Assembly (NCBI GenBank): GCA_033439255.1
Contig: CM065887.1
Span: forward strand, 1,364,001-1,428,000
Length of the DNA: 64,000 nucleotides
Direction of reading: 5' to 3'
Origin: Hericium rajendrae
Lineage: Eukaryota; Basidiomycota; Agaricomycetes; Russulales; Hericiaceae
The position numbers were made by a program, and so were the translations under genes. Positions 845-62,217 of this stretch are shown piece after piece. The notes under the pieces are model-generated. The model made no database searches and was not told the origin of the DNA. It worked only from the letters and a program-made list of their open reading frames with translations. The first letter of the stretch is position 1. Each line of letters starts with the position of its first letter.

Positions 845-1103
845 GGTCTTGGCTGTGTCTGATGACGCAAAGCTCATGTGCTTTGACGAGCAGAGGAGAG
901 GTCCTCCAAACGCCTCGCCATGGGTGACATCGGCTTTAAACGTCTCTCGAAAGACTAACGAATGGACTCCCAGGATGCATTTGTCGACGCGAAACCCAAT
1001 TCACGATGTCTCCGTGTTCTATAAAGCTCGAACCGTAGGCCACACTCTAAGCATGGTCAGACTCACCTTCAATTTCTGCATCGTGCTGAGGCGTCGATGC
1101 CAT
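845..1103 (-). pseudogene. BTB relic C: decayed exon 1 of a BTB/POZ gene
   Basis: The minus strand is a visibly decayed copy of exon 1 of the BTB gene at 61118-62217. The start context (GCAACCATGGCA, ATG at 1103) is shared. Further in, pieces equivalent to GDIV, GFRV-x-KC and VF-x-E-x-F align at nucleotide level. Most of the N-terminal region is missing, there is a two-base deletion next to the ELWLEHGD position, and the frame is broken several times. Similarity fades near 845, before the intron, and no second exon follows. Upstream sequence (1104-1260) also matches the upstream region of 61118, so this is the remnant of a duplicated gene and not chance similarity. Confidence 0.75.
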
Positions 1104-1646
1104 GGTTGCCAGTAACGAGTGACTTGCAGACCTGAGTACAGCGGTATCGCTACTAGTTGAAACAAAAGGGAAAAAGCGACAACAGAAAATGAATAGCTCA
1201 ACGCGGCGGTATCGAACTTCAGATGAACAAACAAACGGCCCGCGACCGGCCCAGAAGGAGAGGTGTGGTGATCCACATGTTTAGAATATACGCGGGAGCC
1301 ATTTGGGCGCAACATCTGTAACGCAATCATTCGAAGTTTTTGGACAAGAGAGTCTCTCTGGGGCCCGCTTGTCAATGCGTTGCAATAAGAACATATATCA
1401 GTATCAAAACATCACAACCTATATGCTCAGCATCGTACAAACCGATCATAGGATACAAAAAATCCGAGCGAACAACATACAAATCGCTCGAAATGCAATC
1501 TGGGTGCTCCGGCGTCCGACGCGAGCGTGAACGTGGCGCAACGGTTTCCTTTCCGCCATGCTGCGTGTCTGTGAATGCGCAGATCAGTCAAATAACAACG
1601 ATGAAGCTGTGAAGGCCACATAGAAATCCACTCACGGTCGTGTGGG

Positions 1647-2739
1647 TCATGCATCCGAAGTCGATGGGTTGTCCTGAGTTTTCGTCGTCATTGATGCCGC
1701 CTGGGCCGCTTCGACTGCCGCCCAGTCTTCAAATCCGCAGAGCGAAGGGAGGGCGTCCCAAACTCTCTTTTGCAAAGCAATCCAGTACTGCCGGACGTGG
1801 TCCTTGAAGGCTTGACAGCCAGGGAATTGGCTACTGTCATCCTGTCCGACTATTTTTGGAGAAAAAATATCTCCCATAATCAGCCGCCGCAACTTGTTCT
1901 CAGTGTCCCGCATAGGCTCATCCAGGAGACCACAACACCCGTCTTGAGGGCACCTCCAGTTCCCATCTGAACGGCGGCACCCGTTCTGGAAAAGCCATTT
2001 TTCGCCCGCACGATTGTCCTTCAGCGCCTTATCGATGAGACCCATGAGATCATCGCGGAAAATCGCGCAGGCCCATCTGGTCTCGTTAGATGCGGCGCTT
2101 GTCGTTGGGTGGGCGATCTCGTTGAGAGTAAAGAATGACGACATGTAGAAAGCCATCGGAAGCATGATGGGGATGTTGTACGTTTTGGCTAGCTCAACAG
2201 CATACATCTCATCTGTATCTCCAGGTAGGTAATCACGTTTGTCGACACTCCAGGCTGAGAATGTCGAGGGGAAAATGGAGGCAAGCGTGTCGACGATTTC
2301 TTCATGCAGGTCATCGATCATATATTTGGTGGATAACTTCAGAACCGCCGCAAGCACCTTGAAGGCAGGCTTCGATTTCTTCTGTATGTACCTAAAGGAC
2401 TCGAGATAGTTATACATGTGCATCAAGCTGCCAGAGGTATGAAACGCACTGTCTGAAATGCATGGCTTTGAGAAGATGGTACATCTCCTCGGCGGAATCT
2501 TGAAGCCGCACGACAGATAGGCCCTCAGACACCTCACTTTGGGCCGGGTCAACGGTCGCGAACATGTCTTGGAAGACAGTCGAGTTCAGCGCCAAGATGC
2601 ACTGACTCGCGCAAAAGCCAGTGGTGTCGCATACGAGGACGATATCGCCACGTGCAAGCCAGAGGTCAGAATGGCGCGTCCAAGCCGGTGCCTCAGGATC
2701 ATCCTCGCGGGGACGTTTGGCGGCAGGTTGTGTGACCAT
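1647..2739 (-). CDS. BTB/POZ domain protein A
   Basis: Predicted 344-residue protein from two exons (2450-2739 and 1647-2391) joined across a 58 bp GT-AG intron in phase 2. The start is the ATG at 2739: the open frame extends upstream only to a TTG, and the paralogue at 59334 begins at the same place. The order is a basic KRPRED patch (about residues 7-12), a BTB core (W-L-x-R-GD-I-V-L-V-C ... F-Q-D-M-F, about 25-96), a BACK-like helical part starting at KLSTKYMIDDL, and the family C-terminal domain with a C-x4-CC pair and the WDALPSLCGFEDW ending. BTB proteins commonly dimerise and act as CUL3 substrate adaptors or transcription cofactors; which applies here is unknown. It is the inverted-duplicate partner of A' and has the same exon lengths in codons. 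Confidence 0.9.
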
Positions 2740-3005
2740 GTCGGGCAATTGTGCTGTGAGTGCATATAGATCGTGTGTTGAAACCTATAAAACCTACATA
2801 GTGTGTAAAAGCAAGGCGACAAAGCTTTGTATGGAGGACGACGTACCCTGACAAGGTATCTGGCAAGTCTGCTTCAACAATTCTCCTTTGAAACACAGCA
2901 GAGTTGATCTCCCACCGGTCTACAGAAGTTGAGACTTGAAAGAGACGTGATGGTCGACCGACAACCGTCAATCGATACCATGGGATGGTGCAGAGACTGA
3001 ATGAC

Positions 3006-3024
3006 ATCGGGCCGAAGCCGGACC
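3006..3024 (+). promoter_or_regulatory. GC-rich element in the A / relic D divergent promoter
   Basis: The 19-base sequence ATCGGGCCGAAGCCGGACC lies between the starts of BTB gene A (2739, minus) and relic D (3256, plus). Near-identical elements occupy the equivalent position between divergent BTB genes at 59058-59076 (one difference, reverse strand), 46647-46664 and 44645-44662. The spaced CGG/CCG triplets resemble sites bound by fungal Zn2Cys6 regulators, which is inference only. Confidence 0.5.
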
Positions 3025-3255
3025 GCTCGACGATGCCACGGTTCGACAAGATGTGACTTCAACGTCAACGTCGCTGCCGCTGGAGCCTGTTCCTGAGGCC
3101 GCGTACTATCTGGTCTGCATAATCAAAGGTGAGCCTGAAATTGATCAAATTATTACAAGGGGAATGTGGATGATTATGCTTCCTAGCAGCCTCTCTTGTC
3201 ATTCGTGCCGCGCTGACATTCAGAGGCTCTAGGATGGTTTTCCGGGTGCTGTGCC

Positions 3256-3335
3256 ATGTCTGCGTCTACGCGCTCTTCGAAGCATCGTAGACAGGAGAAA
3301 ACCGAAGGGACAGCTTGGGCTCAATATGCGGAATC
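3256..3335 (+). pseudogene. BTB relic D: first 25-30 codons of a BTB gene
   Basis: The plus strand starts with an ATG at 3256 and encodes the same N-terminus as the minus-strand BTB gene at 57777-58815 (STRSSK-x-RRQEKTEGTAWAQ). Similarity stops near 3335, where the BTB core should begin, and a stop codon follows soon after. The upstream sequence is also shared with the promoter of 58815. The rest of the gene is absent from 3340-3572. This shows that the D gene was present before the inverted duplication and was later deleted from this arm. Confidence 0.8.
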
Positions 3336-3572
3336 GAAATGGCCATGAATCAACTGGCAGTAGAAAATAAGCAGTACTAATAAGGTGAGTAGAGGAACGG
3401 TACAGAGGCATTATCGGTAAGGTAGCGCTTTACAGTAGCGATATAAGGGAATGAGGGATAGAGGTGTCAGCGGTGTGATGAGATGGTGGCACGTGGGCCT
3501 TCTGCCCTTCAAAGGATCGGTGCGTCAGATAATTATCAAATATCATTGATCATACCCAGCAGACCCCACCAG

Positions 3573-4635
3573 CTATGCCTTGGATCCCGCAACAGCAGCC
3601 TGAGCAGTCTTGACAGCCGCCCAGTCCTTGTACCCGCAGAGCGACGGCAAAGCATCCCATACCTTGCCCTGCGCCGTAAGCCAATACTGATCTACGCGGG
3701 TCCTCAGATGCTTGCAGATCTTGTTATATTTCGGATGCATTCGGCCCAGGCCTGGCGAGAAGATATCGTTCAGTGCAAGGCGCTGGAACTTCTGTTCACT
3801 GTCCGCGAAGGAGCTTTCCGTTAAGACACAACACCCGAGATCGCACTCCCGCCAGCACCTCGCACCAAAGGCTCCGCGCTGAACATGCCGTGAGTCCTTC
3901 TCGCTTCTGCTATCCGACAGCGCATTATATGCGACGTTCGCAAACTCGTCGCGGAACATGGCGCAGGTCCATCGCGTCGCATTTGAAGCTCTGGTCTTCT
4001 TCGTCATGCTGATTCGCCTTGCGGTGTGCAAGCTGGCGAGATGGCATGCTGCGGGGAGGATGATGGGGACGTCGTGCTGTTTCGCGAGCTCGACGGCATA
4101 CATCGCGTCGAGGTCTGGTGGGAGGTAGTGGATCTTGCTGTCGGTCCAGGCGGCCAGCGATGAAGGAAATATCAAAGTGAGCGCATCGACGGCTTCTTCG
4201 CGCAGGTCGTCGATCATGTATTTTGTTGATAAGTGGAGGATTGCCGCGAGGGCTTTGAATCCGGGCCGCGATGTCTTTCGGACATATCTGCATGGTGGCA
4301 GCTCGCCCGTCAGCAAAATGAGAGGATAAAAGAGGTGACACTCACTGTCTGGAATGCATTGCCTTCAGCAGATGATACATATCATCTGCAGGATCATGAA
4401 GCTGCACAACCGAAAGACCCTCGTATGTCTCGTTCTGAGAGGGGTCGACAGTCAAGAACATCGAGTGAAAGATCGATGAGTTTAGTGACAAAACGCATTG
4501 GCTGACGCAGAATCCAGTGGTATTGCATACGATGACGATGTCACCGCGGGTCAGCCAGAGGTCTGGATGGCGAGTCCATATCCGCACGTCGTCTTCGCGG
4601 CGGCGTTTGTTGGGAGGGGGCGTTATAACATCCAT
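3573..4635 (-). CDS. BTB/POZ domain protein B
   Basis: Predicted 334 residues from exons 4346-4635 and 3573-4287, with a 58 bp phase-2 intron after the H-S-R-Q version of the family motif. The ATG at 4635 is chosen because it aligns with the MDV-x-TP start of its partner at 55776; the frame extends upstream only to a TTG. The N-terminus has a KRRRED patch, followed by the BTB core (LTRGDIVIVCNTTGFCVSQC), the KYMIDDLREEAVDAL helical part, and the C-terminal domain with C-x3-CC, FSPGLGR and WDALPSLCGYKDW. Only one cysteine remains of the second cysteine pair (ICKHLRTR). It is the left-arm copy of B' at 55776-56847. Confidence 0.9.
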
Positions 4636-4963
4636 CGAAGAGGCTTCAGCAAGTTTCAACTGAGCTCCGAAAGAGAGAATGTCGCTATCTTCCGGTATGT
4701 ATTGTAGGCTTGGTGAAAATATCCACAGACGGCTGCAGGAAGCGTAAAATACCTGAAATCTTTGAAAACAATGTTATTATCTGTATGCCTAATGTTTCAT
4801 ACCTTGGCTCAATATAGACTGGTGACCGTCTCTCGATACACAATGACGGAAGAGTCGAGTATTGCTCAATATGCAGACTGCGTTCGTACGAGTGTCGAGG
4901 AATACACGAAGGAACCTCGCGCCCGAAGGCAGGGGGTCTTGCCAGAGGGGCTCACAAGCCACC

Positions 4964-4976
4964 CCGGGCCGATCGG
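4964..4976 (+). promoter_or_regulatory. CCGGGCCGATCGG element upstream of BTB gene B
   Basis: A CCGGGCCGATCGG sequence lies about 330 bases upstream of gene B. The matching stretch upstream of B' (55482-55502) carries an 8-base inverted repeat, ATCGGCCC and GGGCCGAT. Both share the GGGCCGAT half-site with the elements in the divergent BTB promoters. A functional role is inferred only from recurrence. Confidence 0.35.
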
Positions 4977-5294
4977 ATCTGGCGTGCGATCGCCATTTCT
5001 TCGACCTGGATGCAGTTCTCAACGAGTTAACTGTTAGCTTGTCGAATAACGTATGGTATATGGTAAGTATGTGGAGGGCAGACTGACTTTGCGCGTTGAT
5101 GCTGCGGGTTTTTGAAGGGGATCTTCCAGCGGAGGTTGCTTACCTTCATTATAGTAATAACATAGTAAGTCTAAGTACTTCCTCGATGTCGTGCGGCATA
5201 AATTCGGTCCAGTCATACAAGGTATAGCTACATGTGGCATATCCAGAACGAAGTCCAAGAAAGAGTCAATCATAAAGCATCACAGGTCATAACT

Positions 5295-26232: not shown

Positions 26233-26380
26233 ATAGATACTTATTTGACTCAACCATCGTGCCTAGGATCGACGTATCTGAATTCCCTTTTCCAGCTCGC
26301 GTTCTTTAAAGCAGGCAAGCGCGTATACGGGCATCAGACGCAGTTCAACAAGTCTACAAATTTGCTACAGATCCAGATTG

Positions 26381-44367: not shown

Positions 44368-44644
44368 GTCAGATATATGAGATGACCGTGACTGTCGACT
44401 TGCGTCCATAGACGAGTGGAGAGGCGCTACAGTCTGCAATGAGCATGCCCTGATGGATTTGCTCACTGGATCAAGCCGAAAGCAAGACTCAGTGAACCGA
44501 TCTCAGTACTTAGGAAGAGAAACAACACATACCCAGAGGTGTCGAAGTCACGGTCCTCGTAGTAGCCACCACCGTAGCTTCTTGTACTATGTAGCTTGGT
44601 CGAAACACGAGAAAGACTCGAGAAAGTGTAAGTCGTACAAAGTG

Positions 44645-44662
44645 ATCGGGCCGGGCCGGGCC
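44645..44662 (+). promoter_or_regulatory. GC-rich element in BTB pair 1 promoter
   Basis: ATCGGGCCGGGCCGGGCC lies between the starts of the divergent BTB units at 44367 (minus) and 44788 (plus). It corresponds in place and sequence to the element at 46647-46664 in the neighbouring, duplicated pair. Confidence 0.45.
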
Positions 44663-44787
44663 GCCCAAGCGGGATACGATCGGATTCGGATACGGTATTT
44701 CTTCACTCGAATTTTTAAGTCAACATTGCAGTGGTTAGTGTCCGTCCCAAGTCTAGGTCATCATCCGTCCCCGGTGGGTTCGAAACC

Positions 44788-44910
44788 CATGACAGCCTCA
44801 CGTCCCACCAAACGTAGTCGACAAGACGAACCAGAGGACAATGGGTGGACTCGACATCCAGGGCTCTGACTAAAAGATGGCAACATCGTCCTTGTGTGCG
44901 ATGATATGGG
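44788..44910 (+). pseudogene. BTB relic (pair 1, plus member)
   Basis: From the ATG at 44788 the plus strand encodes an N-terminus close to the intact gene at 46769: TKRSRQDEPEDNGWTRHPGL, then a TGA where the family has tryptophan (TGG), then KDGNIVLVCDDMG. The frame is lost at about 44910 and no BTB core, intron or second exon follows. It is the truncated counterpart of 46769-47827. Confidence 0.8.
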
Positions 44911-45281
44911 ATAAGTACTGTCTGCTCTGCTCTAAACGCGGGATACTGCGTATGGGATGGTCATGGCGTGCGTTCAGGGTGCTTGAATGTGATCTCGATT
45001 ATGGACGCATCCAAAAATTACACCACCTGCCACATTACATAGGACACACCCTGTACAACAAATTTGAGGTAAAGACAGACGAAACGTACAGTAAACCTTA
45101 GATGGCTGATACAAGAAATGCTTCAAAAACACGTCCCTCCTTGGATAGGAGTGGCGGCGCAGTTGAAGCTGCGCGAAAACTCGTACAAGCTGCTGTAGCA
45201 GTCCATACGTCAAATCGGATCAGCAGCATATCAACGTTGCATTTCGGGAGCAAGGCAACTTACCTCATGAGTCACTAGTGC

Positions 45282-46379
45282 TCATGACGCTGGAGGTTTT
45301 GCCTGGTCTTCAGCTGCCGAAGAAGCTGTGTGGGCCGTGTTAATTGCAGCCCAATTTTCGAATCCACATAGGGATGGCAAAGCATCCCATATCTTGCGTT
45401 GTATACCATCCCAATGCTGATCAAAACGTCGTTTGAGAGGATCGCAGCTGCGATTCGGTCCAGTTAGTCGGCCCAGGGTCGGCGAGAAAAGGTTCTTCTC
45501 GGTGAGTCGTCGGGCCCGGACCTCGATATCTTCGATCCATGCACCATTTGTGCTGAAGCATTTGTCCCCAGCGCAGGTCCAGCCACCGCCTGAATCGCGT
45601 AGGCTGGCCTTAAATAACGAACTGTTGGTAACGCGATCCCGCCTCGTCGTACTGTCCACGAAAGTCATCAGCTGGTCGCGGAAAATGGCGCATGTACATC
45701 GAGTGGCGACGGATGCTACACTGGCTTCCGGGTCCATGATTGTTTTGATGGGCTGGAGGCTCGAAATGAAGCAGGCCGCAGGAAGAATGATGGGAACATC
45801 GCATTGCTTGGCAAGTTCGACAGCATATAGGGTATCCAAGTCGTCCGGGATGTACCCACTAAACCGGTTGGCCATTGCTGACATAGTAGAGGGGAAAATC
45901 CCCGTCAAGATGTCGATGATTTCTTCTCGCATGACCATCAACCATGTACTTGGTCGACAGTTTCAGAATTGAGGCCAGGGACTTGAACGTAGGCTTGGAC
46001 GTCTTTCGAACATATCTGTATGTTGTTCGTTCAATGAAATCTATATAACCTGCAAATAAAGCACGTACTGTCTGACGTGCATTGCTTTCAGCAAGTGGTA
46101 CATCTCTTCTGCATCATCGTGAAGACGCGCGACGGGAATGCCGTCGAACGTTTCGTTCTGCGCTGGATCCACCATCCCGAACATCTCTCGGAAAACCGGA
46201 GAATTTAAGGAGAGAAGGCATTGGCCGACACGGAACCCAGTGTTGTCGCAAACGAGTATGATATCGCCACGGTCAAGCCACAACTCCGGATGGCGGGTCC
46301 AATTCAACGATATCGTCGGGGCGCCCTCGTCGGCAGGTTCATCTTCGCGACGGCGTTTAGCTGGAGGCTCGGTAACCAT
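45282..46379 (-). pseudogene. BTB gene with a one-base frameshift (pair 2, minus member)
   Basis: Exons 46069-46379 and 45282-46015 with a 53 bp intron total 1045 bases, one more than a multiple of three. The extra base lies near 45932-45937: the sequence reads GTTGATGGTCATGCGAGAAG where paralogues encode VDDLRE, so the frame shifts inside KYMVDDLREE at about codon 131. Downstream everything is intact in the shifted frame (EEIIDILTGIFPSTM, C-x4-C, FSPTLGR, WDALPSLCGFENW). It is a close sister of 43289-44367. Either a recent pseudogene or an assembly error. Confidence 0.85.
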
Positions 46380-46646
46380 TCCAGAAATACGACAGGGATT
46401 TCGCTATCGATTTTTATCTACTGCTTGCAAGGACAATGCCTCGAAAAATCTCGTCACTGTGTCAATAAAGCAGTTAGAAGTAGTACTCATGAAATCGAAC
46501 TCATTACCTGGAAAACGAATGGCACGTACGTCACGGATGCGCTGAAGTCTTGCGGCCCAGTTCTTAAGATCTTAACAGCGAGACCACGGCTCTGAAACGA
46601 GAAAGATGCAAGTCGAAATCCCAGACGTCGCAGTGTGGACAAAGCC

Positions 46647-46664
46647 ATCGGGCCGAGCCGGACC
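46647..46664 (+). promoter_or_regulatory. GC-rich element in BTB pair 2 promoter
   Basis: ATCGGGCCGAGCCGGACC lies between the divergent starts at 46379 (minus) and 46769 (plus). It differs from the elements at 3006-3024 and 59058-59076 mainly by lacking one purine in the centre. Confidence 0.5.
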
Positions 46665-46768
46665 GGCTAAATTGTCTGCAGGCAGCTGCAGGCAGGCGTG
46701 TCGTTCAACAAGACTTCAACGATGTCCTTGCTATCCTCCCCGACAATATTATAGATTCGAAGCCCGGC

Positions 46769-47827
46769 ATGGCCTCGCCTCCCGCAAAGCGTCGTCGACA
46801 AGATGGACCAGACAGCGACGCGTGGGCTCGGCATCCAAAGCTCTGGCTGGAAGATGGCAACATCGTCCTCGTATGCGAGGATGTGGGATTCTGCGTCACT
46901 CGCAGCATCCTGTCCTTGAATTCGCCGACCTTCAAAGACATGTTCACCATTGTCGATCCCACTCAAGGCGAAATGTATGACGGCCTCCCCGTCGTGCGTC
47001 TGCCTGATACGGCAGATGAGATATATCATTTACTCAAGGCCATGCATTTCAGGCAGTAAGTCTATTCCCTTCACGTGCTCTGCGTTAGCTTGACCATGAA
47101 TTGTTATAGATATGGTCGAATAAAGTCTCGGCCCAAATACTACGCTCTCACCGCCATTCTGAAGATGTCCACGAAGTACATGATTGACGATTTGCGGGAA
47201 GAAATCATCGATACCCTGGCCATCAGTTTTCCTTCACATCTGGACAAGGACTACGACGAGCGCTATGTTCCTGAAGACTTCACTTCCCTGGATGGCCTGC
47301 ATTTAGTGCAGCTGGCTCAGCAAACCAACGTTCCATTGTTGCTTCCATACGCATGCTACCTCACCTGTCGTCTTCCGCTGGAGGACATCATCGACTCGCC
47401 AGACAGCATCTCAGATACCACTCGTCGCACCTGTATCTTGTTCCGGAACGGATTCGTCAAGGCCGTATCTAGAATCTTTGAGAAATGCAATGCCTCTCCC
47501 GATAGCCCATGGAAACGGCTCAATACGAACGGCCGTTGGATATGTGGTGCAGACAACTGTGTCGGTGTGCATGGCAGGGGAAAAGAGGGTGCGGAGAACC
47601 TATTTCGGTTCCCGGATACTTATAGTCGCGACATATTCTGCACAATGCAATGGACAAGTGGTCGCAAATGTCTAGGGTGTCTTGGGCGCATAGACAAATA
47701 CTGGCGCGAGGTGCAGGTCAAGATATGGGCTTGCTTGCCATCTCTCTGCGGATTTAAGAATTGGAAGGCTGTTTCGGATGCACAAGAGGCCGCATCGCGC
47801 AGGGAGTTGGAGTCTTCAGAGTCCTGA
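46769..47827 (+). CDS. BTB/POZ domain protein (pair 2, plus member)
   Basis: Predicted 334 residues from exons 46769-47055 and 47110-47827 with a 54 bp phase-2 intron. N-terminus MASPPAKRRRQDGPD; BTB core LEDGNIVLVCEDVGFCVTRS; helical part MSTKYMIDDLREEIIDTL. The C-terminal domain has both cysteine pairs (C-x4-C and CLGC before RIDKYW) and the LPSLCGFKNW ending. It is the only undamaged member of the two duplicated divergent pairs in 43.3-47.8 kb and resembles the D-type gene at 57777-58815. Confidence 0.92.
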
Positions 47828-49361
47828 GCTTGATGGCATAATCCATGAATACGGTGCGTACAATTATTTAGTTCAGAATCCGGTGGCTGATATTTATTGC
47901 AGCTCAACTGCGAGATGACCGGATATACAGCGTGTTCCGCGCACTTTAGGTCTCATGTCCTCTGTCGACTAACGTACCTCAGAGCACGTCGTTGTTATAC
48001 TATCTATCGTGCTCTCCGATTTTCTTGCTGGGCGATTCACGCGGCTCAAGCTGTGCCCGCCAATCTGCAGTCGGCGGTAGTCTTAAAGTGAGGAATAATG
48101 CGTGCCTTATTTGACGAGGAGCCCCGCTCTTCTGGTAGATCGTAGACATACCCCCCTCCCCGACGCTCGGCTTCGCCTTCACCATCATCAAGAGACAGCA
48201 TTCCCGAGCAGGGTTGCAGATGTGTTGTTCGATGGTGAAGCACGGCCGTTTGACCAATGTCGGATGGCCCTATTAACAAGGACACAATAGATCCACCAGA
48301 TCCACCAGTACATCGAGCAGCACCTGTATCGGGTTCTAAATCCAGAACTGCATAGAGTCAGGTATGTTTTCATGTCCGGAAGATCCTGTCATGATGCATG
48401 ATGCATGATGACCCAGTGTTCCGATGACAGTATTGGACGCTGATGCCAGCGAACTTGAAATGGCGCATACTACTATATTCGACGGATCCAGATGATCAGG
48501 AAAGGCCATCACGCTAACCCATGAGTGTGTGCCCTGCGCAGATCCGAGAACTGCATGCCTTGGAGTTGGATTAACACGTTCGCGGTCCGCCTGCATGTAC
48601 AAAGTAGGGACACCGTATCTAGCGCCGGCCCAGCTCGCACCGGCCGCTTCCCATGTCATCGTCAAACGCAGAATCGCACAGAGCCCTTCGACGGCCCATG
48701 TTGGACGCCACCATGTGTGCGCGAAGTCGAAGCCCACATCTCGTGGCAGTCCGCCAAGAGAGGGGCTACCACATTCGCGAGGACGCCGGGCGTGCCTCCG
48801 CGCTTGCAGCAGAACTCTACTTTGCAAGACGCGTGCGCAAGTTCGCAGCAAAAGGCCCGACCTGACCGATGGCAGCCAGTCTCATATCGGTCGCTGGGAG
48901 ATTCGGGCGCCGAAAACGCCGATCGACCATTGTGAGGACCAAGAGCGCGGCCTATGTCCATTCACGCAGATTCTCTGTGGTATTGTATTATCAGCGCGCG
49001 GGCGGTAAACAAGACGGGATGGGACTAGTGAACGAACAACAAGCAACAAAGCAAGGACCCAACGAACTAAGGGTAAGCTTATAGGGAGGGGGTAGCCGAG
49101 TAGTAAGCGGGAGGTATACAGTAGATCATACATACAACAGTTCACCTGTGTATACAGCGTGTAAGTGCGTGTCCGGCCTTAGCTACAACCGCGCTGCCTG
49201 GAATCGGGTTCTAGAATAGAACAATGATGGCGAGAGGATGGGGGCAGGTCTCCAGTCGTTAGCCTCCGAGGAGCAAGAATGAGAAGGCAGCGAACACCCA
49301 GCATCGCGGAATGAAACCGCAGGATGAATGAGAAAACGCGTCGGGAAAGCCATATGCCGTA
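47828..49361. other. Intergenic, no gene seen
   Basis: About 1.5 kb. Long GC-rich frames overlap on both strands in 48336-48960 but show no domain, no coherent splice pattern and no preferred frame. A short CATGATG repeat occurs near 48395. The end nearest 49361 should be the 3' region of the membrane-protein gene. Confidence 0.35.
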
Positions 49362-52300
49362 TCACTCCTCCGGTCTAGCGAACCCATACGACGATCCGTT
49401 GTACGGGTTGTATCCCGCGCCGCGCACCGCGGCGGGAATGAGGTTCTGCGGGTCGGACGGGCGCAACGTGCGCTGCGGCAGCGCTGTCGGCGGCGCGGGA
49501 AACAGAAACGCGGAGAGCGAGGGCAGCGTGCCGCCGCTGCTGCTGCTCGTGCTGCTCGGCGGCTGCGGCGTCGTCGCGCGCGCGGAGAGGAAGGACGCGT
49601 TGGACGGCGGGGGCGCAGGCGGCAGCGGCGCGAGTGCGAGCGTGGAGTGCGAAGATGTGCGGCTGTGCGTCTGAGAGGGCGGGAGGGGCACCGCGGCGGG
49701 CGGGAGGCCGAGCGGCTGCGGGAGCGGGCGGGGTGAGGCGACGGGGGACGGATATGCGGTGGAGAAGGACGCGGTGCTTTCGTAGCTGGAGGTGCGCGAG
49801 TGTGCGGGCGAGTCGTAACGGGGTGGGGTGGAGACGATGGCGTCGGGCGAGAGAAGAGGCGGGGACTGGACGGGCAGGGAGGTGGGGACTGAGGAGGATG
49901 AGGATGCGGCAGTCATGTAGGTCGAGTGCAAATTCGAGTCAGAGGGGAGAGGAGGGAGTGGCGGACGGTATGGCTTGGCATTGCGCTTCGTTGGCGAGTC
50001 CTTCGGTGTCGGTGGCGAATAGGCAGTGAAGGGCTGCATTGGATTCTCATATCAACAAAGGTCCAGATAGATGAAATGATCCCACTCACATTCTCCCGCC
50101 GCGACATCGGAGTTGGGGGCACGACCTCCAGGCTGGCCCTGCGAATATCCGTGCTGCCCGTCCCCGGCCTACTCTCCCACTTGCGTCCCTGCTCGTGCCC
50201 ACTATGACTCGCGCTCCCACTCGCAGTGCGCATGCTCGCGCTCGCCAAGCTCTTCGACTTCATCCCGGGCCCCGAGCGCCGCGAACCCGAGCTGCCAGTC
50301 AGCGCAGATCCGTGGGTCGCGCGCGTGCTCAGCGGCGACGAGAGCATCGATGGCGCATGTGAAAAGCGCGTCGGCGACATGATCGACGTCCCGCGGGACC
50401 CTCCGCTCGTCGGCGTCCACTGCGAGCTGAAGTCTTCGTGCCCCTCGCGCGCGACGAGGATCACGCTCCTCTTGCTCGCGCTGATGTTCATCACGTCGTC
50501 GCCGTCGCCATCCTCCGCCACCGACGCGTAGTTCGCGCCGCGCGAGCCCCCGAGCGCGCCCATGATATACGCAAGCGCAATGGCGGCCTTCGCACGCGCA
50601 CGCGCGGTCCCACTCCCTGTGCCCGTGCCGAAGCCGCCCAGGTCGGCCGTGCCGTCAGGGGCGGGCGATGGCGCAGCTGACGCGCGCTTCGCCTCTTCCG
50701 ACGCGAGGTCGTCCAGCTCGTGGGTCGCATCGCCGGCGCGCTCCCCGTCGATCGTGAACGCCGTCGGCGCGGCCTGCGACTGCACGGACACGATGCCCGG
50801 GCGCAACACCGCGCATGCGGCGCGCCGCACGGCCCTGCGCGCGCGTGCACCGAGGCCCCGCGTGCTCTTCGCGCTCGGCCGGCTGCCGTCGCTCGCGAGG
50901 GACAAGTTGCTCGCGTGGCGCCCCTTCGTCTCGAGGAGCGAGTCGTGTGCGGCCCCGTCGCCTGTGGAGGCGGAGTGCTTGTGTGCGGGTCGGCGTCGGC
51001 GCCGGCGGCGTCTGTGATAGATCCATGCGGCGCCGAGGCTTGTGATGAAGACGAGTGCAACAATGATGGGGGCCAGGATCTGCGCAGTGGTCCATTGTCT
51101 CGGATGCGATGCTGTGGGAACGAGGTATGAGTTTCAGTTCATCATTAGATTCGCGTGGTTGGAAGTTATATAGAGCGAACGCCTGTCGTTCTGGCGGAAG
51201 CTCAAAAGCTTCCTTTGTCCGGTTCCGTGGACAAGAGCACGCGAAGGCTACAAAGATGCACTATTGTGGAGCAATTGCAAAAAAGCGGGGGGGGCTTACA
51301 TTGCAGGGCCTGCACCAAGTCGAACACGCCGTCTTTCGTGAGGGAATTGTACGCCCAACGGGGGACATCCGCGTTATCTGCGACCCCGTGGTCTGGATGA
51401 TCTTCCCAGAGCGCATGCGGGCACTCTGTCGCCCAGGTCGGATAATCCGGCAGCGTTCCGCTGGACGCGGAAGAAGACGACGCATTGCAGAGCGCACACG
51501 CGGAGAGAAGGTTGTACATGACCGTATTGCTGCAGATGTCAAGTATGTCAGGTCATGTGACGCGCACGGTTTGAGGAGAGCGAAAGGAAGCGACAAGAAA
51601 AGGAACGGCGGACGGTTGCAGGAAAGGCAATTGCAGGGGGAGTATCCGATGGGAATGTGAATGGACGGAATGCAGGTCTTGGATGGACATATCCGGACGT
51701 TGGAATTCGAGCGCGAGGAAGCGGCAGAAGCGTCGGAGTGAGCCCGGCAGCACTACCTCTCGTGCCTTCCAGTCCCATGCTCCCGTCCCCTGGTACAGAT
51801 ATAGCCTGATAGCGCGTTCCAGCCCGGATGAAATTCCGGGCGACGAGGATAGCAAAGGTTCCGGGGCGCGAGCGCGCACGTAGGAGGATATGACCGACGT
51901 TGACTGCGGATGGAGAACAAACTCACCAGCTGCAGTTGTCTCCGGCTGGTAATCGCAGAGTAATAGGCTCAGACAGAATTCAATGTAATAGAATTGGATA
52001 GTGCGCACCTTGAGTGGTATTCAGCATGCCGCCGCACGGCGCCGCCAAGCTCTGTGCAACGGTACATGGAGTGTCTCCGATCTTGTTGTTCAACTGTTTC
52101 GCGACCAGACACCGTCCCCATATAACCCAACCCATGTTAGTGCATAGCAAGCGCTAGGAAATACCCACGTACGCTCACGAATTCGTCGGTGGTGCATGTG
52201 TTGTTCTGTCTCTATCAGTCTCGGCGCAATTCGCGGGATATTAGAATGAGACTCACCGCCTGTGCGCTTGCTCCTCGGACCGACAGGGATAAGATGAAAG

Positions 52301-52410: not shown

Positions 52411-55015
52411 GCGGGCGCTCGCGCTGACAGCGGTGGCGCTGTGCGGTGAGAGAGTACGTCGCGAAGCGGAGGCGGTCAGAGGATGGAGGCGCGCATGGGG
52501 ATATATTGGGGATGATATGCCATGGACGTTGATTCCTGAAAACGGTGGTGGGAGGCGATGTCCTCGAATCAGATCGTCCTCTCCTTCGGCGCTTGTCAGT
52601 AAATAATGTGCCTTCACCTCCTTGCCGTAAGCGATATGGTCATATAGATCAGCCATCGACTCAACATCTTCTGACCGGCCGAGGTTTCTATGGTTCAGAT
52701 ATCGTCACGGCCACGTACTGTCCTTTTGTTTTCTGGAATCGAGGCTCCTTGTTTGCATGCGTCGCCACGGTTCTGTGTCTCCAGAAAATGGGGATTGTCT
52801 GGGATTGTGCGATGCTGGCTCAGGACCATGCCGGACACTCGTGGGGACGGACGAGCGCCACGATGCCGGCTATACCTCCGTCGCAATCTTGAAGATCTTC
52901 CCGACAATCTGACTAAGCGTAATCAGTGTCGTTCAACATTCAACGTCAACGATGACGACGACGACGACGACTTCTGTTCTGCCATTACAAGCTGCCAACA
53001 CATATGATCAAATCAAACTGTAAGGTATCCCTCCTTTTTAGGCTCATTTTATGTGTTTGTGCCCTTTGAACCGTTTTCGTTGACTATTTTCACTGCACAC
53101 GTACGACCCTCATGATGAATGTCGAGCTCCCCATGGCCACTCTGCCCATGAACCCAGGACACATAGAGGACAGGTCTTAAACGGGAACAAGTGGAGCCTG
53201 CAGACCAACTCGTCAAACAGCTTCCCCACTGTTTTCAAGGAAAGGTTATATGACACCTTCTAATCAGCGCCCACAAGGACAGCAGCATACAGTGGCCCTG
53301 CATGAATTCTGCCGGCGCACCCCGCTTGCGGCACGTTCCATCAAGATGTTCGTTCATTTTACACGTCGTGTTTGCATCCGCAGCTCGGTATCGCAATAGC
53401 CATACCCGCGACCCCGCCCATTTCTCGAAGCTCCATCCAGTGCAGCACTGTTGAGCACAGCACCCTGCGCATCCTCGCCCGGCGTACTTGTCTACGTCAT
53501 ACCAGCGTGAGTTTTCCTGCCATGCCGCACAGCACCTCCAGACTTATCTTAAGGCTGTAAGTCTGCTCCACCTGCGACAATGTTTCCGTTCGCCCTGTGA
53601 CAATCCCGAGAAACGCACTCCCCGATGGTCATGAAATCGACGATCCTTCAGCGTTTTTGCTTTCCTCAAAACCGTGCCGGAACAGCTCAACCTCCGGGCG
53701 TGTTGTTCTCCGGCGCGATGTGGAGCTCTTCCGACAATGTTCTAAGAGATGCAGATCATCGAATGCAACCTGGCATCGCGAGCTTGTTAGCCGATTGATT
53801 CCTTGCTTGCATCGACCCACTGCGTCCGTCTCCTTGCCGGCAGGCTAGCCAACCGTTCGTCGTCTGTCGAACTGGTACGCAAAAATTTCTAGTCCTCTCC
53901 GTTTTCAACATTCCGCGCACGATGCTATGCTCTCCTGTCGCGGTATGTCATTCAATGGCTCCGCGCGAAGTCACATCTCCAGACCGGATCCGGGTTGACT
54001 CCGACCTGAGGTTCAAGTGCGTATGGATATTGTTCCGTGTACAGCAAGGCTATCTCTCCGTCCCGGCATTGCGGTTTACTTTGGTGAGTTCGTGTCGATG
54101 AATATAGGTCCAGACCAGAAGTTACTAACACTGACTTCCGTGCCGCCTCGTGTAGAGATGTCCATCGACCCACGATCATACCGCTCTCGGGCCACCGCTC
54201 CGGTCAGAACCAGCTTCTCACGGCGCTATTCTAGTAAGGCTGCATTTGAGGACGTCTTCCTCTCCATTATGCCTCGCGCCATGCTCATGTAGAAACATAA
54301 ACGAGTACCGCGTCCGGCTCGCGTCTCCTACCTTTTCGCAGCGCTCTTCTATTTTCACCTAGCGCGCGCCGCTACCGCCGTGGTACCTTGGGTGCTTCCA
54401 CGCGCCCCAATCGCAGTAAGCCAGTTCGCCCTGCGGCGCCTTCGGAGACAGGGCGGGCCCTTTCCTCAGGACAGTTCATTTCGCGCAGCGCCCGGAGTAC
54501 TTAGTGAGATCCGCGGCTGCAGGGTGCGTGGTAAGTGGACCAGATACACGCAGTCCCTCGCCTCGGCTTGCTGATAATGAGGACAGCTGAAAGCAGATTC
54601 GGGTTTGCGTTCGAATTTGTGACATGTTGTCACCGCGGCATACTGCCGCTCCGGCGCACTGGCCAGGGCGTCTCTGAGGGTGATGCGCACCTCCATTCGT
54701 CCACTTGGCGCGTCAATGCGCATGTCCCGATATCGGGTTCGTCCCATGGCCCACGTCGCGACACGAGGCTGCGCGACTGCCGGGCGATATGCATTGCCAA
54801 GACGATAAGGCCCGCAGTTGCGACGAACCTGATCGACAGATGAGTGATGTGGCCTGGGTGGGTGCCACTGTATAGGCGTGGGCGCAGGGGTGCGTCCGTG
54901 ACGAACCGTCTACCATCTTTCAGGAACTCTTGCTTGACACCTCCCTTTATATTACCTGGTTTGTACGACGTCGAAGGACCTGCGATCAAATGCCTCTGAT
55001 TCGTAGAGACTATGC
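52411..55015. other. Long stretch without a recognisable gene
   Basis: About 2.6 kb. A short GAC/GATGAC microsatellite lies near 52950-52972. Frames from 53370 to 54850 are short and broken, and I could not match them to the upstream part of the tyrosine recombinase that follows, although that is where it would lie. Confidence 0.4.
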
Positions 55016-55414
55016 GTGGTATGCTGGGTCCCTGGAGACGGTTCAGCATTCGTGCGAAGAAGTCCGCCCTCCAAACTATGCCTCGGCACCACATCTTTGT
55101 CCTGGACTGTTCGCGCATCTGCCATCGTATGCCAAATATGCCGCAACTTCATAAACCTCTGGAGCCGTGCCTCTGACAGTATGCCGACGCAGACCTGGTT
55201 CATGCGGCGCTCGCGCGCTCATTTTCTGTCCGACATTAGTGGTCACTTTCTCCGTGCAGGGGGTGCCACGGCGTTGGCGGAAGACGGTGTCTCTCTTGAT
55301 TATATTCAGTTACTCGGTCGCTGGTCCTCTGACACTTTCCAACTTTATAGTAATGCTGCAGGATATTGCATATTCGTTATTCAACTATCTGCCACCATAC
55401 CATACTTTTTCTGA
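55016..55414 (+). pseudogene. Tyrosine recombinase C-terminal remnant (Crypton/DIRS-like)
   Basis: The frame contains the end of a fungal tyrosine-recombinase catalytic domain: PTQTWFMRRSRAHF, then SGHFLRAGGATALAEDGVSLDYIQ with the H-x-x-R pair, LLGRWSSDTF with the R-W box, and the FQLY nucleophile tyrosine. The N-terminal part with the first catalytic arginine is not found upstream, and the sequence after the tyrosine is not the usual I-R-K-N-P. Such domains occur in Crypton and DIRS elements of agaricomycetes; no reverse transcriptase or RNase H is seen. The remnant ends within about 30 bases of where similarity to the left arm begins. Confidence 0.7.
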
Positions 55415-55481
55415 CAGATTACTCGTAGATGGTTGCATACAAGTCGAAAAGTTAAATTTAGAGCACGACGCTGCACGCCTG

Positions 55482-55502
55482 ATCGGCCCTGGCCGGGCCG
55501 AT
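55482..55502 (+). promoter_or_regulatory. Palindromic GC-rich element upstream of B'
   Basis: Inverted half-sites ATCGGCCC and GGGCCGAT flank a five-base TGGCC centre, about 275 bases before the B' start. The half-site matches those in the divergent BTB promoters. Confidence 0.4.
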
Positions 55503-55775
55503 AGCTTATGAGTCCTCTGCCCTCGGGCACGAGGACATTCTTTCTGTGTTCCTCGACACTTGTACGAACGCAGTCTTTGTACTGAACCAAGGTATGAAAC
55601 CTGAAGCATTCATCGTGTCATCTCTCTGAAAGACCGCAGGTGTTTTACGATCTAGGTCCCTGTAACAATATCAATCTGGACAAGTATTTTCACTAGCCCA
55701 TAATCCATACTGGAACATAGCGACATTCTCTCGCTCGGAACCACTTTGAGACTCGTCTGACTCTAATTTTCTTGA

Positions 55776-56847
55776 ATGGATGTCACAACACCTCGTCCCA
55801 ACAAACGGCGCCGCAGCGACATTTTCGAAGTGCCGGCGTGGACTCGCCACCCAGAGCTCTGGCTAACACGCGGTGATATCGTCATCGTATGCAATACCAC
55901 CGGGTTCTGCGTCAGCCAATGCGTTTTGTCATTGAACTCTTCAGTCTTTCAGTCGATGTTCGTGACTGTCGATCCTGCGCAGAATGAGACACACGAAGGT
56001 CTTTCGGTCTTGCGGCTCCATGATCCTCCAGATGATATGTACCATTTGCTGAAGGCAATGCATTTCAGACAGTTCGTCTTGCTTCCTCTCGAGCTCCTTG
56101 TTTTCGCTCATTAAATGGAAATCACTATGCAGATATGTTCGAAAAACATCGCGGCCCGGATTCAAAGCCCTTGCCGCAATCCTCAAACTATCGACAAAAT
56201 ACATGATCGACGATCTGCGCGAAGAAGCCGTGGACGTGCTCACATCCATATTCCCATCATCGCTAGCATCTTGGACCGACCACACGATCTTTTACCTGCC
56301 ATCAGATTATGACGCAATGTACGCAGTCGAGCTCGCAAAACAGCACGACGTCCCCATCATCCTCCCCGCAGCATGCTACCTCTCCAGCCTACGCAGCGCA
56401 CGGCGCATTCTCGAGACGGAGAACAGCATAGCTTCTAAAGCAACGCGATGGACATGTGTCGTGTTCCGTGACGAGTTCGCGGACGTCGTGCACAAGGCGC
56501 TGTCGGATAGTAATTTCGAGCAGAACTCAAAGCACGCGCTGCGTGGTCTCAATGGCAGAGGCGGCTGGCGCTGCTGCGAGGGCGGGTGCTGCGTCCTGAC
56601 GGAGGAGCCCTTTGCCAATCAGGAACAGAACTTTCGGCATCCTACGCTGAGCGATGTCTTCTCGCCGAATATGGGCCGGAAGCATCCGAAGTATAACAAG
56701 ATTTGCAAGGATCTGAGGAGCCGGGTGGATCAGTATTGGCTTATGGCACAGGGCAAGGTTTGGGATGCTCTGCCGTCGCTCTGCGGATACCAGGACTGGG
56801 AGGCTGTCAAGGCTGCTCAGGCAGCTGTCGCTGTGTCTAAGGCGTAG
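55776..56847 (+). CDS. BTB/POZ domain protein B'
   Basis: Predicted 336 residues from exons 55776-56071 and 56133-56847 with a 61 bp phase-2 intron after H-F-R-Q. N-terminus MDVTTPRPNKRRR; BTB core LTRGDIVIVCNTTGFCVSQC; helical part KLSTKYMIDDLREEAVDVL; C-terminal domain with CCEGGCC, FSPNMGR, ICKDLRSRVDQYW and WDALPSLCGYQDW. Only one cysteine of the second pair is present, as in its left-arm partner at 3573-4635. No defects seen. Confidence 0.92.
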
Positions 56848-57776
56848 GGCGTTATATAGCTCGTAAATATCCGTCGGTTTCGAGACCAGATAGTAAAATT
56901 TGGCTGATGCGTCAGATTTTCGGTATCTTTACAGTCTCCGCAAGTCGTCGGTTGCCCCATCACGCAGAACAAAGGCATCAGAGGACCACTTCATGTTGCT
57001 TCTTTGAACAGCCAAAGACCTGGCCATCTCATCACATCGCTAGAACCTCTATCCCTCGTCTGCTCTTTATCCTTACTACCAAGCGCTACCTTACCGATAC
57101 GAAAACGTTTCTGACTACTCCTCTGCTTTCCTTATCCGCCGGATTTAATACCACATATTTACTATCCCCTGTTGATTAACGACCACTTGTGCACTGGATG
57201 TGCGGTGATTTTGGCAGTCCGTCAGCTGTGACTGAGTGTCAGTTTGTTCAAGCTTATTCTCGTCACTGATTTCGGTCTACGCCGCATGCAGGTTTATTGG
57301 CAGGTGACGGTGCAGACGCGAACCCTTCACTTCTCCGCGTTGAGCCATTCGGAGCACCCGAGCGGTGATTTAGATGCTATGTGGTGAGCATTTTTCAGGC
57401 GCTCGGGCGGGCTGCTCGCTCTACGTTCTGGCTGTTTGAGATCATTCGATTCGTTATGTTTGCAGTCGTCGTGTCCGACTCTATTCAGTCACATTGGGTA
57501 TTATCGCAGGATACGGAGACGTCAATCTGATAGAAGTGTCGGGCAAACGATCCTGACCGTCGGATTCAAGCAAATGATATTGAGCGCGAGACAATCTAAC
57601 AGGTCTTTAGGACTTGCCTCGCGTCCAACCTGAATAACGCCGGGCTTTCTCGGGCACTCCTTCACCGGGCACCTCCTTGTCGATTGTGCTACGCAAAGCT
57701 AGATGGACCATGTGAGCTGAGATCCATTTACAAGGACGACGGCAATACCGCTGACCTTGGCACAAACGGTGGAAGA
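56848..57776. other. Intergenic, no gene seen
   Basis: About 0.9 kb between two converging BTB genes, so it should hold two 3' regions and no promoter. No recognisable coding sequence and no clear match to the left arm was noticed. Confidence 0.4.
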
Positions 57777-58815
57777 CTATGACATAGGGGTTTCATCCCC
57801 TTGCGCATGCACATCCGCCCAGTCCTTGAACCCACAAAGCGTCGGAAGGACAGTCCATATCTTGAGCTGTATGCCGCGGTAGTATCTATCCATACGCTCG
57901 CAGCACGACACGCAAATTGAGCCGCTCGCCTCGAATCCCAACGTCGGATCGAAGATATCGCCTGGGGTCAGCCGGCGAAACGTGGCCTCGAGGTCACGCT
58001 TGTACTTGTCGTCCACAAACTTGCATGCGCGCCCGAGGCAGAGCCAATGGCATTTATTGCGTAACTTCCACGGAAAGTCCGGGTCTGCAGCGCTGTTGTC
58101 CATGAGGTCAGATATTGTGGCCATGAGCTCGTCTCGGAAGATTATGCAGGCATTTCGTGTCTCCCATGATGCCATGCTGCTGTTTGGATCCAGGACGCGC
58201 CTCGGTGGAAGCAGGGCGGACAGGTAGAAAGCAGCTGGGAGGATGGCCGGGATAGATAATTCCTTCGCCAGCTGTACAGCGTGCATCGCATCCATGTCAT
58301 TCGGTGTGTATCGGAGAGACTTGTCGTTCCACCCTGACAGAGTAGATGGTAAGATTGCTGACAAGATGTCGATGGCTTCTTCTCGCAGGCTGGTGACTTG
58401 ATACTTGGTCGAGAGTCGCAAGATCGATGCGAGTACCCCGTAGCTAGGCTCCGAGCTCCATGTAGCATACCTATGCAACGATAAATTGGAGCGGAGGAAT
58501 GGATAAGCGTGAGTAGATTGCTTACTGTCTGAAGTGCAATGCCTTTAAGAGATGGTACACGTCGTCGGCCGCATCATCAAGCCGCACAATTGGGATATCG
58601 TCATGCCTTTCAGTCGTTGGACCAAGCTCCTTGAAAATATTCCCAAAGACCGGAGAATTTAATGCCAGAGGGCTGCGAGTGACAAGGAATCCCACGTCGC
58701 CGCATACAAGCACAACGTTGCCATCATCCAACTAAAACTCCGGATGTTGAGCCCAAGCTGTCCCTTCAGTTTTTTCCTGTCTACGACGCTTCGAAGAGCG
58801 CGTAGATACAGACAT
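57777..58815 (-). pseudogene. BTB gene D' with one nonsense codon
   Basis: From the ATG at 58815, exons 58526-58815 and 57777-58470 (intron 55 bp, phase 2) give 327 codons in frame with one stop, TAG at 58732-58734 (codon 28). Paralogues have tryptophan TGG here (PELWL-type motif), so a single G-to-A transition created it. Everything after it is intact: LDDGNVVLVCGDVGFLVTRS, helical part, both cysteine pairs (C-x4-C and CVSCC) and LPTLCGFKDW. Reinitiation at the next methionine (about codon 30) could still give a nearly complete BTB protein lacking only the basic N-terminus, so loss of function is likely but not certain. Its left-arm copy survives only as 3256-3335. Confidence 0.85.
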
Positions 58816-59057
58816 AATATAGCACCCCCGCAAAAATTAACCTAGAGCCTCTGAATGTCAGCGCGGCACGAATGACAAGGAAAGCTGCTAGGAAGCATAA
58901 TTGTCCGCATTCTACCGTGTAGTAATTTGATCAATAACGAACTCACTTTGGATAATGCAGACCAGATAGTACGCGGCCTCACAATCAGGTTACAGTGGCA
59001 GTGACGTTGACGTTGAAATCACATCTCGTCACCGAGCTGCAGTAGGCATCGTCTACC

Positions 59058-59076
59058 GGTCCGGCTCCGGCCCGAT
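59058..59076 (-). promoter_or_regulatory. GC-rich element in the D'/A' divergent promoter
   Basis: On the minus strand this reads ATCGGGCCGGAGCCGGACC and differs by one base from the element at 3006-3024. It lies between the divergent starts at 58815 and 59334. Confidence 0.5.
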
Positions 59077-59333
59077 GCCACTCGGTCTCTGCAGTCTCTG
59101 CACCATCCGATCATGGTATGAAATGATAGATCTCCGAGTCGGTCAACCATCACCTCTCTTTCAAGTCTCAACTTCTGTAGACCGGTGGAAGACTGGTTTT
59201 CTTGTCCCTCGAAGCAGATCTGTCGAGGAAGACGGGACAAATACCTCGCCAGGGTATGTCGTTCTCCATACCATGCCTTTACACACTACTGTACTCACAC
59301 GATCTGAATGCCCTCATAGCACAACCGCTCGAC

Positions 59334-60427
59334 ATGCTCACACCTCCTCCCGCCAAACGCCTTCGTGAGGACGATTTTGAGGTACTGGCTTGGACGCGTC
59401 ACCCTGACCTCTGGCTTGCGCGTGGCGATATCGTCCTCGTATGCGACGCCACTGGATTTTGTGCGAGTCAGTGCATCTTGGCGCTGAACTCGACCGTCTT
59501 CCAAGACATGTTCGCGACTGTCGACCCGGCTCAAAACGAGGTGTTCGAGGGTCTCTCCGTCGTGCGGCTCCAAGATTCTGCTGAAGAGATGTACCATCTT
59601 CTCAAGGCCATGCATTTCAGACAGTGCGTTCCATCTCTTCAGCTGCTTGATAAATGTGTATGAACTGTTTCGAGTCATTTAGGTATATACAGAAGAAATC
59701 GAAACCTGCCTTCAAGGTGCTCGCAGCGGTTCTGAAGTTATCGACCAAATATATGATTGACGACCTGCGTGAAGAGATTGTCGACACGCTTGCCTCCATA
59801 TTTCCGTCAACATTTGCGTCCTGGAGTGTCGACAAACGTGATTACTTACCCGAAGATACAGATGAGATGTATGCTGTTGAGCTAGCAAAAACGTACAACA
59901 TCCCCATCATGCTTCCCATGGCCTTCTACATGTCCTGTTTCTTTACCCTCAAGGAGATCGTCCACCCAACGACCAGCGCCGCATCAAATGAGACCAGATG
60001 GGCTTGCGCAATCTTCCGCGATGATCTCATGGGCCTCATCGACAAGGCATTGAAGGATACTCGCGCCGCCGAACAATGGCTCTTCCAGAAGGCGTCGCGC
60101 TGTTCAGATGGGAACTGGAGATGCGCTGAAGATTCATGCGTTGCTCTAATTGATGAGTCTGTGCGAGAGCATGAGAACAAGTTGCGGCGACTGGTTGTGG
60201 GGGATGTCCTCTCGCCGCTGGTGCTCCGACAATATGACGGCAGCCAAGGCCCTGGCTGCCAGACCTTCAAGGACCACCTACGGCAGTACTGGGTTGGTAT
60301 GCAAAAGAGGATCTGGGATGCCCTCCCTTCGCTCTGTGGATTTAAAGACTGGGCGGTAGTCGAAGCGGCCCAGGCAGCTTCAACAGCGACGAAACGTCAG
60401 GAGAACTCATCGACATCGGATGCATGA
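59334..60427 (+). CDS. BTB/POZ domain protein A'
   Basis: Predicted 344 residues from exons 59334-59623 and 59683-60427; intron 59 bp, phase 2. Both exons equal those of gene A in length (290 and 745 bases), and the proteins are very similar along their whole length: PAKRLREDD, LARGDIVLVCDATGFCASQC, KLSTKYMIDDLREEIVDTL, C-x4-C, WDALPSLCGFKDW and an identical STSDA end. The start aligns with MVTQPAAKR of gene A as MLTPPPAKR. Intact, and paired divergently with D'. Confidence 0.92.
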
Positions 60428-60890
60428 CCCACGCGACTGTTGGTGAGTTTCCGTCTGGTCTTTGCAGCTTTATTATCGCCTATTTGACTGACCTGCGCAT
60501 TCTCAGACACGCGACACGGCGGCAAGGATTCCATCGTACCACATTCACGCTCGCATCCCGCGCCGGAGCACCCAGATTGCATTTCGAGCGTTTTGCATGT
60601 TATTCGCTCGGAGTTCTTTGTATCCTATGATTGGTTGTACAATGCTGAGCATATAGGTATTAGGCTGTGATGCTTTGATATTAATATGCGCACCGTTGCA
60701 GCGCATCAGTAGCAAGTGGGCCCCAGAGATACTGTCTTGATCCAAAAAAAAAAAACTTTGAATGTTTGCGTCACAAATGTTGATCGTAGGTGGTCCTCGT
60801 GCATATCTTAGACACTTGGATCACTATACTTTCCCTCCTATTCATGCTGTCTTTTCTCGACGCCTGGGCGTTAGAAATGCTTCTTCTGCC

Positions 60891-60906
60891 GGGCCGGATC
60901 CGGGCC
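60891..60906 (+). promoter_or_regulatory. GC-rich palindromic element upstream of C'
   Basis: GGGCCGGATCCGGGCC lies about 215 bases before the C' start and has a self-complementary CCGGATCCGG core. The equivalent site upstream of relic C (1237-1252, minus strand) reads GGGCCGGTCGCGGGCC. Confidence 0.35.
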
Positions 60907-61117
60907 ATTCGTTCGTTCATCCGAAGTTCGATGCCGCCGCAAGCTCTTCAACTTCTGACGTCGCTGTTTTCTTCTACTAGGCACCACTTTGTTCCAACTT
61001 TTGGCGAACCCGCTGCACTTTAATTTGGTCTTCACTTGGACAGCTCTTTGCTCGGTCTGGTACATCTACACAAACCTCTGCTGCTTTTGCCTCCGAAGTC
61101 ATCAGTCACTAGCAACC

Positions 61118-62217
61118 ATGGCACCGAAACGCCCCAACAAGAGACGCAGGGAACTTGAGGACGAGCCTGGACAAGCTGCAAGCGAAACTTCTACAGTGTC
61201 AGCTCCAACGCAGACGTGGACCTCGCACCCTGAGCTCTGGCTGGAACATGGCGACATCGTGCTCGTATGTGAGAAAACTGGGTTTCGCGTCGGCAAATGC
61301 GTCTTGGCGGCCAACTCGTCGGTCTTTGGAGAGATGTTTACGGCCGCTGCCGCTCATGGCGAGATGTTCGAAGGCCTTCCGGTCTTACACCTTGAGGATT
61401 CTGAAGGCGACATGTATCATTTGTTGAAAGCGATTCATTTCCGACTGTAAGTCTCTCCTCTCCTCTTTAATAGCTTTCTAATAAACCGATGGCCTCATTC
61501 TTGTGATATAGATGTCAACCAACTTTAGCTTCCCTCATGGCAGTTCTCAAGCTCTCTGCTAAGTACGGATTTGCTGATCTGCGAGCAGACGTCATAAAAT
61601 CCCTGGCCGTGATCTTTCCCTCCACTCTGTCGCCTCACTCCATGATCTTCAAGTACTTACCAACAGATCTTGATTATTCTCTTGTGGTGGAACTCGCGAA
61701 ACAATATAACGTCCCCCTCATCCTTCCCGCCGCCTGCTACATGTCTGCTCTACGGCCTGCCAGAGTCATCGCCGATCCCAATTTCGGCTCAGCGGCCATG
61801 TCTACGCGATCTTTCTGCATGGTTTTCCGTGACGAGCTCATGATCACCGTGGCGAAGACATTGGCGGACAGCTACGCCAGCGATACATACATCTGGAAAG
61901 ACCGGGCACATAAGCTAGCTTGCAGCGGACTTTGCCCAGTAGACAAGTGCTGCCGCTTACGGCTCAGCCGTCCCGAAACGCTGCTTCGCCAACTCGCTGG
62001 CGATATCTTCAGTCCGTCCTTCGGCCGATTGACGGTTGAGAACGGGGATACAGCCGTCGGCTGCAAGGACCTCCAGACGATGATCGATCGGCACTGGTCT
62101 AGCATACAGCAGAAGATCTGGGATTCTTTGCCGTCACTTTGTGGATTCCAGGACTGGGAAGCGGTCAAGGTTGCTCATGAGGCTTCGCTGAGAACGACAA
62201 ACGAGAAGAAGCTCTGA
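61118..62217 (+). CDS. BTB/POZ domain protein C'
   Basis: Predicted 344 residues from exons 61118-61446 and 61512-62217 with a 65 bp phase-2 intron after H-F-R-L. N-terminus MAPKRPNKRRRELED; BTB core LEHGDIVLVCEKTGFRVGKC. The helical part is divergent (LSAKYGFADLRADVIKSL in place of LSTKYMIDDLRE). C-terminal domain with C-x4-CC (CPVDKCC), FSPSFGR, a single cysteine at the second site (GCKDLQ) and WDSLPSLCGFQDW. Same length as A and A'. Its left-arm copy is the relic at 845-1103. Confidence 0.92.

Follow-up and report, generated by a model that had tools for sequence, protein, structure and literature searches.

BTB proteins in general act as ubiquitin-ligase adaptors, for example for Cullin-3, and BTB/POZ gene clusters of fungi reflect lineage expansion. 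One paper lists BTB/POZ with the ubiquitination-related families whose developmental expression is conserved (PMC8893723). With respect to inverted duplicates, a Drosophila study describes how staggered breaks and end joining at an inversion leave such copies at the ends of the interval, and it includes a case in which a 7.1-kb intact copy faces a 2.7-kb copy worn by deletions (PMC3355041).

We analysed a 64,000-nucleotide window of Hericium rajendrae (contig 10, positions 1,364,001-1,428,000, in a 46.8-Mb genome of 19 contigs). The window carries two arms, about 50 kb apart, that constitute an inverted segmental duplication of a block of BTB genes (Table 1). As in lineage-expanded fungal BTB/POZ clusters, many paralogs lie together here, some intact, some fragmentary and some stop-bearing; unlike in those clusters, the genes have a 240-aa second-exon part with neither a Pfam match above threshold nor a solved-structure match. 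Among open-licence papers on BTB families in basidiomycetes, we found no account of such a block. The arms resemble the Drosophila mojavensis cases 2h and 2q (PMC3355041) in that inverted copies of a non-repetitive segment, each a few kb long, lie on either side of an interval, one of them intact and the other reduced by deletions. They differ from those cases in that the Hericium arms are far more diverged and that inversion of the Hericium interval is putative.

Extent and gene content of the duplicated arms

Comparison of the arms by self-BLAST gave a chain of collinear blocks in inverted orientation. This chain takes in intergenic DNA, which bears out the original prediction that a continuous segment was copied in inverted orientation, with collinear match beyond BTB coding sequence: positions 55400-55610, 58848-59270 and 60430-61110 are largely covered, the stretch 61020-61110 being without a BLAST match. 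Self-comparison of the 264 kb of contig 10 around the window gave 89 matches at E <= 1e-10, and the A part of the arm pair ranks second among them. When globally aligned, the arm flanks have identities of 0.65-0.80, compared with a mean of 0.415 and a maximum of 0.498 for 30 random pairs of unrelated 500-base pieces; for the short B intron the value is just 0.50 (58 columns). Neither arm was found to extend further, outward or inward, in the 264-kb self-match, the flank alignment or the junction-flank BLAST.

Table 1. Coordinates of the arms, their genes, the aligned blocks and neighbouring elements (window positions; blocks are given as left arm / right arm)
Feature	Position	Strand	Remarks
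Left arm	898-5037	-	outermost and innermost BLAST matches
Right arm	55411-61379	+	self-BLAST
Gene C fragment	893-1103	-	matches C' exon 1 (query 55-90, 56% aa)
Gene A, intact, 344 aa	1647-2739	-	exons 2739-2450 and 2391-1647
A-D intergenic DNA	2740-3255		389/489 aligned positions same as right arm
Gene D fragment	3256-3348	+	start codon and about 26 codons, other sequence, stop
Gene B, intact, 334 aa	3573-4635	-	exons 4635-4346 and 4287-3573
Short dispersed repeat insertion	4815-4864	+	8-base target duplication; missing from right arm
Remnant, weakly tyrosine recombinase-like	54850-55415	+	PF00589 E 0.0017, 18.6 bits vs cut-off 27.1
Gene B', intact, 336 aa	55776-56847	+	exons 55776-56071 and 56133-56847
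Gene D'	57777-58815	-	TAG in frame at codon 28; both exons otherwise open
Gene A', intact, 344 aa	59334-60427	+	exons 59334-59623 and 59683-60427
Gene C', intact, 344 aa	61118-62217	+	exons 61118-61446 and 61512-62217
Chain block	898-1001 / 61379-61276		76% identity
Chain block	1135-1260 / 61019-60880		69% identity
Chain block (longest)	1253-3332 / 60839-58739		79.9% identity, 2,131 columns
Chain block	3337-3486 / 57188-57024		68% identity
Chain block	3573-4821 / 56847-55571		76.5% identity, 1,283 columns
Chain block	4875-5037 / 55576-55411		69% identity

The gene order had been given as C(-)A(-)D(+)B(-) on the left and B'(+)D'(-)A'(+)C'(+) on the right, with C and D surviving as fragments on the left, a stop in D' and A and B intact on both sides, and our gene models agree in each respect. 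A, A', B, B' and C' have one-intron models, all open, and A and D are arranged head to head. Only the start of C' lies within the shared arm; the match of left C to C' ends inside exon 1, and nothing was found further on.

The left D start codon at 3256 (+) matches the D' start codon at 58815 (-), with 70 of 77 bases identical, and past this match the left frame passes into different sequence and ends at a stop. The body of D' (right 57188-58739, ~1.55 kb) has no left counterpart, and a DNA search of the genome gave no other match to it. On the simplest reading, the left D body would have been lost by a ~1.55-kb deletion. This reading is preferred because the D start codon and N-terminus lie within shared DNA on both arms, and for the same reason an insertion of the D' body on the right was rejected.

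Against the BTB/POZ model (PF00651, curated cut-off 20.5 bits), A scored 23.9, A' 22.2, B 21.8 (exon 1), B' 22.9 and C' 27.7, all above the cut-off. The second-exon ORFs had no Pfam match above cut-off, and a BACK or other known domain after the BTB, as in Cullin-3 adaptors of the BTB-BACK type, was not found; an adaptor role for the arm genes is putative. The second-exon part gave 0 matches at E <= 1 against solved-structure sequences, and its fold, modelled from 8 sequences (pLDDT 75.7), gave 0 matches at E <= 0.001 against solved structures. No known RNA or tRNA genes were found.

The ~50-base dispersed repeat of the left arm occurs again at window 25953-26003, with at least 29 genome matches, itself included. 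At locus L036 the repeat stands at the head of a 1,530-base element flanked by 9-base direct repeats, and that element is 99.4% alike in L039. Exact target duplications accompany copies of 49 bases (8-base duplication, window 4815) and 55 bases (9-base, L037), and target duplications were seen by eye for copies in L040, L042 and at window 25953. It was unexpected that copies of the tip only should have target duplications of their own. Rfam gave no match at E <= 5 on 4700-5000. 

Further observations concern the surroundings of the arms. The left arm's outer neighbour, left of the window, is an FHA-plus-kinase gene (L012:8463-9753), presumably of the Rad53/Chk2 kind, as recognised by eye. An inverted match of 57.5% over 544 columns (E 4e-7) joins window -2662..-2143, in the left outer flank, to 51058-50540 in the interval, away from the junctions, and junction-flank BLAST returned a 61-base match of 50821-50880 to 65473-65533 (E 5e-4). 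Another set of duplicated segments, likewise among the 89 self-matches, occupies window -78.7..-54.3 kb, left of the window on contig 10, with a direct pair of 2.2 kb at 90% (-72546..-70367 and -58469..-56274) and an inverted pair of 1.9 kb at 75.7% (-78209..-76352 and -54340..-56202).

Age, selection and possible exchange between the arms

For A and A', dS was 0.53 (0.41-0.69) and dN/dS 0.172 (0.12-0.24); for B and B', dS was 0.64 (0.49-0.83) and dN/dS 0.225 (0.16-0.31). Both pairs are under purifying selection and have been retained as proteins. Judged from sequence divergence, the duplicated arms are old. Since the dS intervals of the two pairs overlap, one event suffices, and we regard a single inverted duplication of the B-D-A-C block as highly probable, although non-coding divergence differs between blocks (identity 0.79-0.80 for A flanks vs 0.65-0.70 for B flanks, p 4e-6), which could also mean two events or regional constraint.

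B and B' are alike in amount of change. A comparison of A with A' gave 30 vs 8 changed sites (chi-square 12.7) when the 43-kb BTB locus, w43, served as outgroup, and a less clear 18 vs 10 (chi-square 2.3) with B'. These counts hint weakly at faster change in A than in A', the w43 outgroup having an interrupted frame.

The original prediction also held that the arms could pair or recombine and invert the genes between them. Their ~76-80% identity, the lack of any perfect run longer than 39 bp, dS of ~0.53-0.64 and the 50-kb spacing speak against this, and recombination between the arms today appears unlikely. In shuffles, the longest perfect run of 39 exceeded the mean in both the A block (28.1, p 0.04) and the B block (21.5, p 0.0045), as might be expected if the arms still exchanged sequence or drove inversion of the interval. 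However, this mild excess of long runs can be explained by protein constraint without exchange, fourfold-site identity is low along both genes (A, 83/127; B, 82/130), and neither fourfold profile contains a long homogenised patch. We therefore consider continuing exchange or inversion very improbable. Gene conversion between the arms is disfavoured by the same shuffles and profiles, despite the small excess of long runs.

We also compared the non-coding flanks with fourfold sites. The flanks of A were more conserved than its fourfold sites, both on the A-D intergenic side (Fisher p 0.0014) and on the 3' side (309/392, Fisher p 0.0029), whereas the flanks of B (275/410) and its fourfold sites were alike (p 0.40). 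This comparison was made after the data had been seen, and gapped alignment favours non-coding DNA in it. Identity across the A-D intergenic DNA is uneven, being lowest beside the A start (28-31 identical columns per 50 across 2911-2762), with conserved stretches at 3332-2994 and 2961-2912. The matching first 77 bases of D are likewise more conserved than the fourfold sites of A, though they belong to a gene that is broken on both sides. Six D codons differ there, 4 of them with a changed amino acid, which means that the D protein is not what is conserved. Selection might be preserving the dead D start and the A-D intergenic DNA because they regulate the live A gene, a suggestion that we consider doubtful; the middle head-to-head pairs lack the conservation pattern. 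If it were true, the pair would permit a direct test of a live gene keeping the promoter side of its dead divergent partner.

Origin of the two copies

As a whole, the locus is somewhat more probably than otherwise an old inverted segmental duplication in a birth-and-death BTB cluster, with a staggered-break origin preferred. Taken separately, the staggered-break origin is a tentative choice. The 50-kb interval would have been inverted by staggered breaks, and the filled-in break ends would have left the block duplicated at both junctions of the interval, with 898 and 55411 as the new junctions. The inverted duplicates do sit at both ends of one interval, as the product of such an inversion requires. 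We infer that the right copy is nearer the parental state, because C' is complete on that side and the BTB cluster goes on beyond it: further BTB loci follow to the right of C' (window 62.7-127.7 kb), and the same search found none over the 90 kb that precede the window on its left.

Against staggered breaks, the junctions bear no diagnostic mark. BLAST for an element common to them (left-inner/right-inner, left-outer/left-inner and left-outer/right-outer) gave no match at E <= 0.5. The recombinase-like remnant runs up to the right inner junction, the start of the right arm, and four further diverged copies of it (70-78%) occur elsewhere in the genome. It may mark the junction, or it may be a later or unrelated insertion at 55411. 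One of its copies, at contig 4:905872-906037, lies within the contig 4 BTB matches (889-935 kb).

A possible alternative, nearly as likely as staggered breaks, is that the left block is a copy of the right one that was inserted there the other way round, the interval itself never having been inverted; 898 and 5037 would then be the new junctions. The same alignment facts fit this reading, and other dispersed duplicate pairs do occur nearby on contig 10; by itself, however, it leaves unexplained why the copy sits inverted at the interval's other end. An improbable third course, for which the tandem and head-to-head pairs of the cluster (e.g. window 43-47.8 kb) offer a precedent, is a tandem or palindromic duplication whose copies were later separated by rearrangement or insertion of the interval. 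It requires more events, and NOG1, ribosomal S13/S18 and other conserved genes lie in the interval. An assembly artefact, for which we found no support, has practically no chance of being correct, because a contig end assembled twice should give near-identical copies, and these two are set apart by about 20-24% of their positions and by the 1.55-kb deletion.

Birth and death in the surrounding BTB cluster

The interval had been described as housekeeping genes. Conserved genes are indeed present: 9 of 20 interval ORFs matched Pfam at E <= 0.01 (2 of the matches falling below curated cut-off), and the matches include NOG1, the creatinase/prolidase N-terminal domain and ribosomal S13/S18, as well as sugar transporter, AMP-binding and NAD-binding domains. 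The description was incomplete, as the interval also contains seven BTB loci (near 11-12.5, 23-24, 25-26, 26-27.5, 43-44, 45-46 and 47-48 kb) and two BTB fragments (near 42.8 and 44.8 kb). Across the genome, the BTB family model gave at least 103 matches at E <= 0.01, each exon being counted separately.

A tree was built from 28 of the 31 BTB loci of contig 10, three fragments with <150 usable columns being excluded. A pairs with A' and B with B', each at 100/100, and the two pairs are joined at 88/78. D' pairs with the 46.8-kb locus at 96/89. Window 42400-48000 contains two tandem head-to-head BTB pairs, 43(-)/44.8(+, fragment) and 45(-)/46.8(+); the D-like plus-strand gene at 46.8 kb is open, and the frames of its partners on the minus strand, at 43 and 45 kb, are interrupted. 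Gene fates in this middle block are opposite to those in the arms.

The BTB region is a birth-and-death cluster, and the duplicated block is a readable snapshot of that process, in which, in all probability, one event gave equal copies of four genes that then met separate fates in each copy. It is a well-preserved but ordinary case of gene cluster growth and shrinkage, and it leaves the existing picture of how such clusters evolve unchanged.
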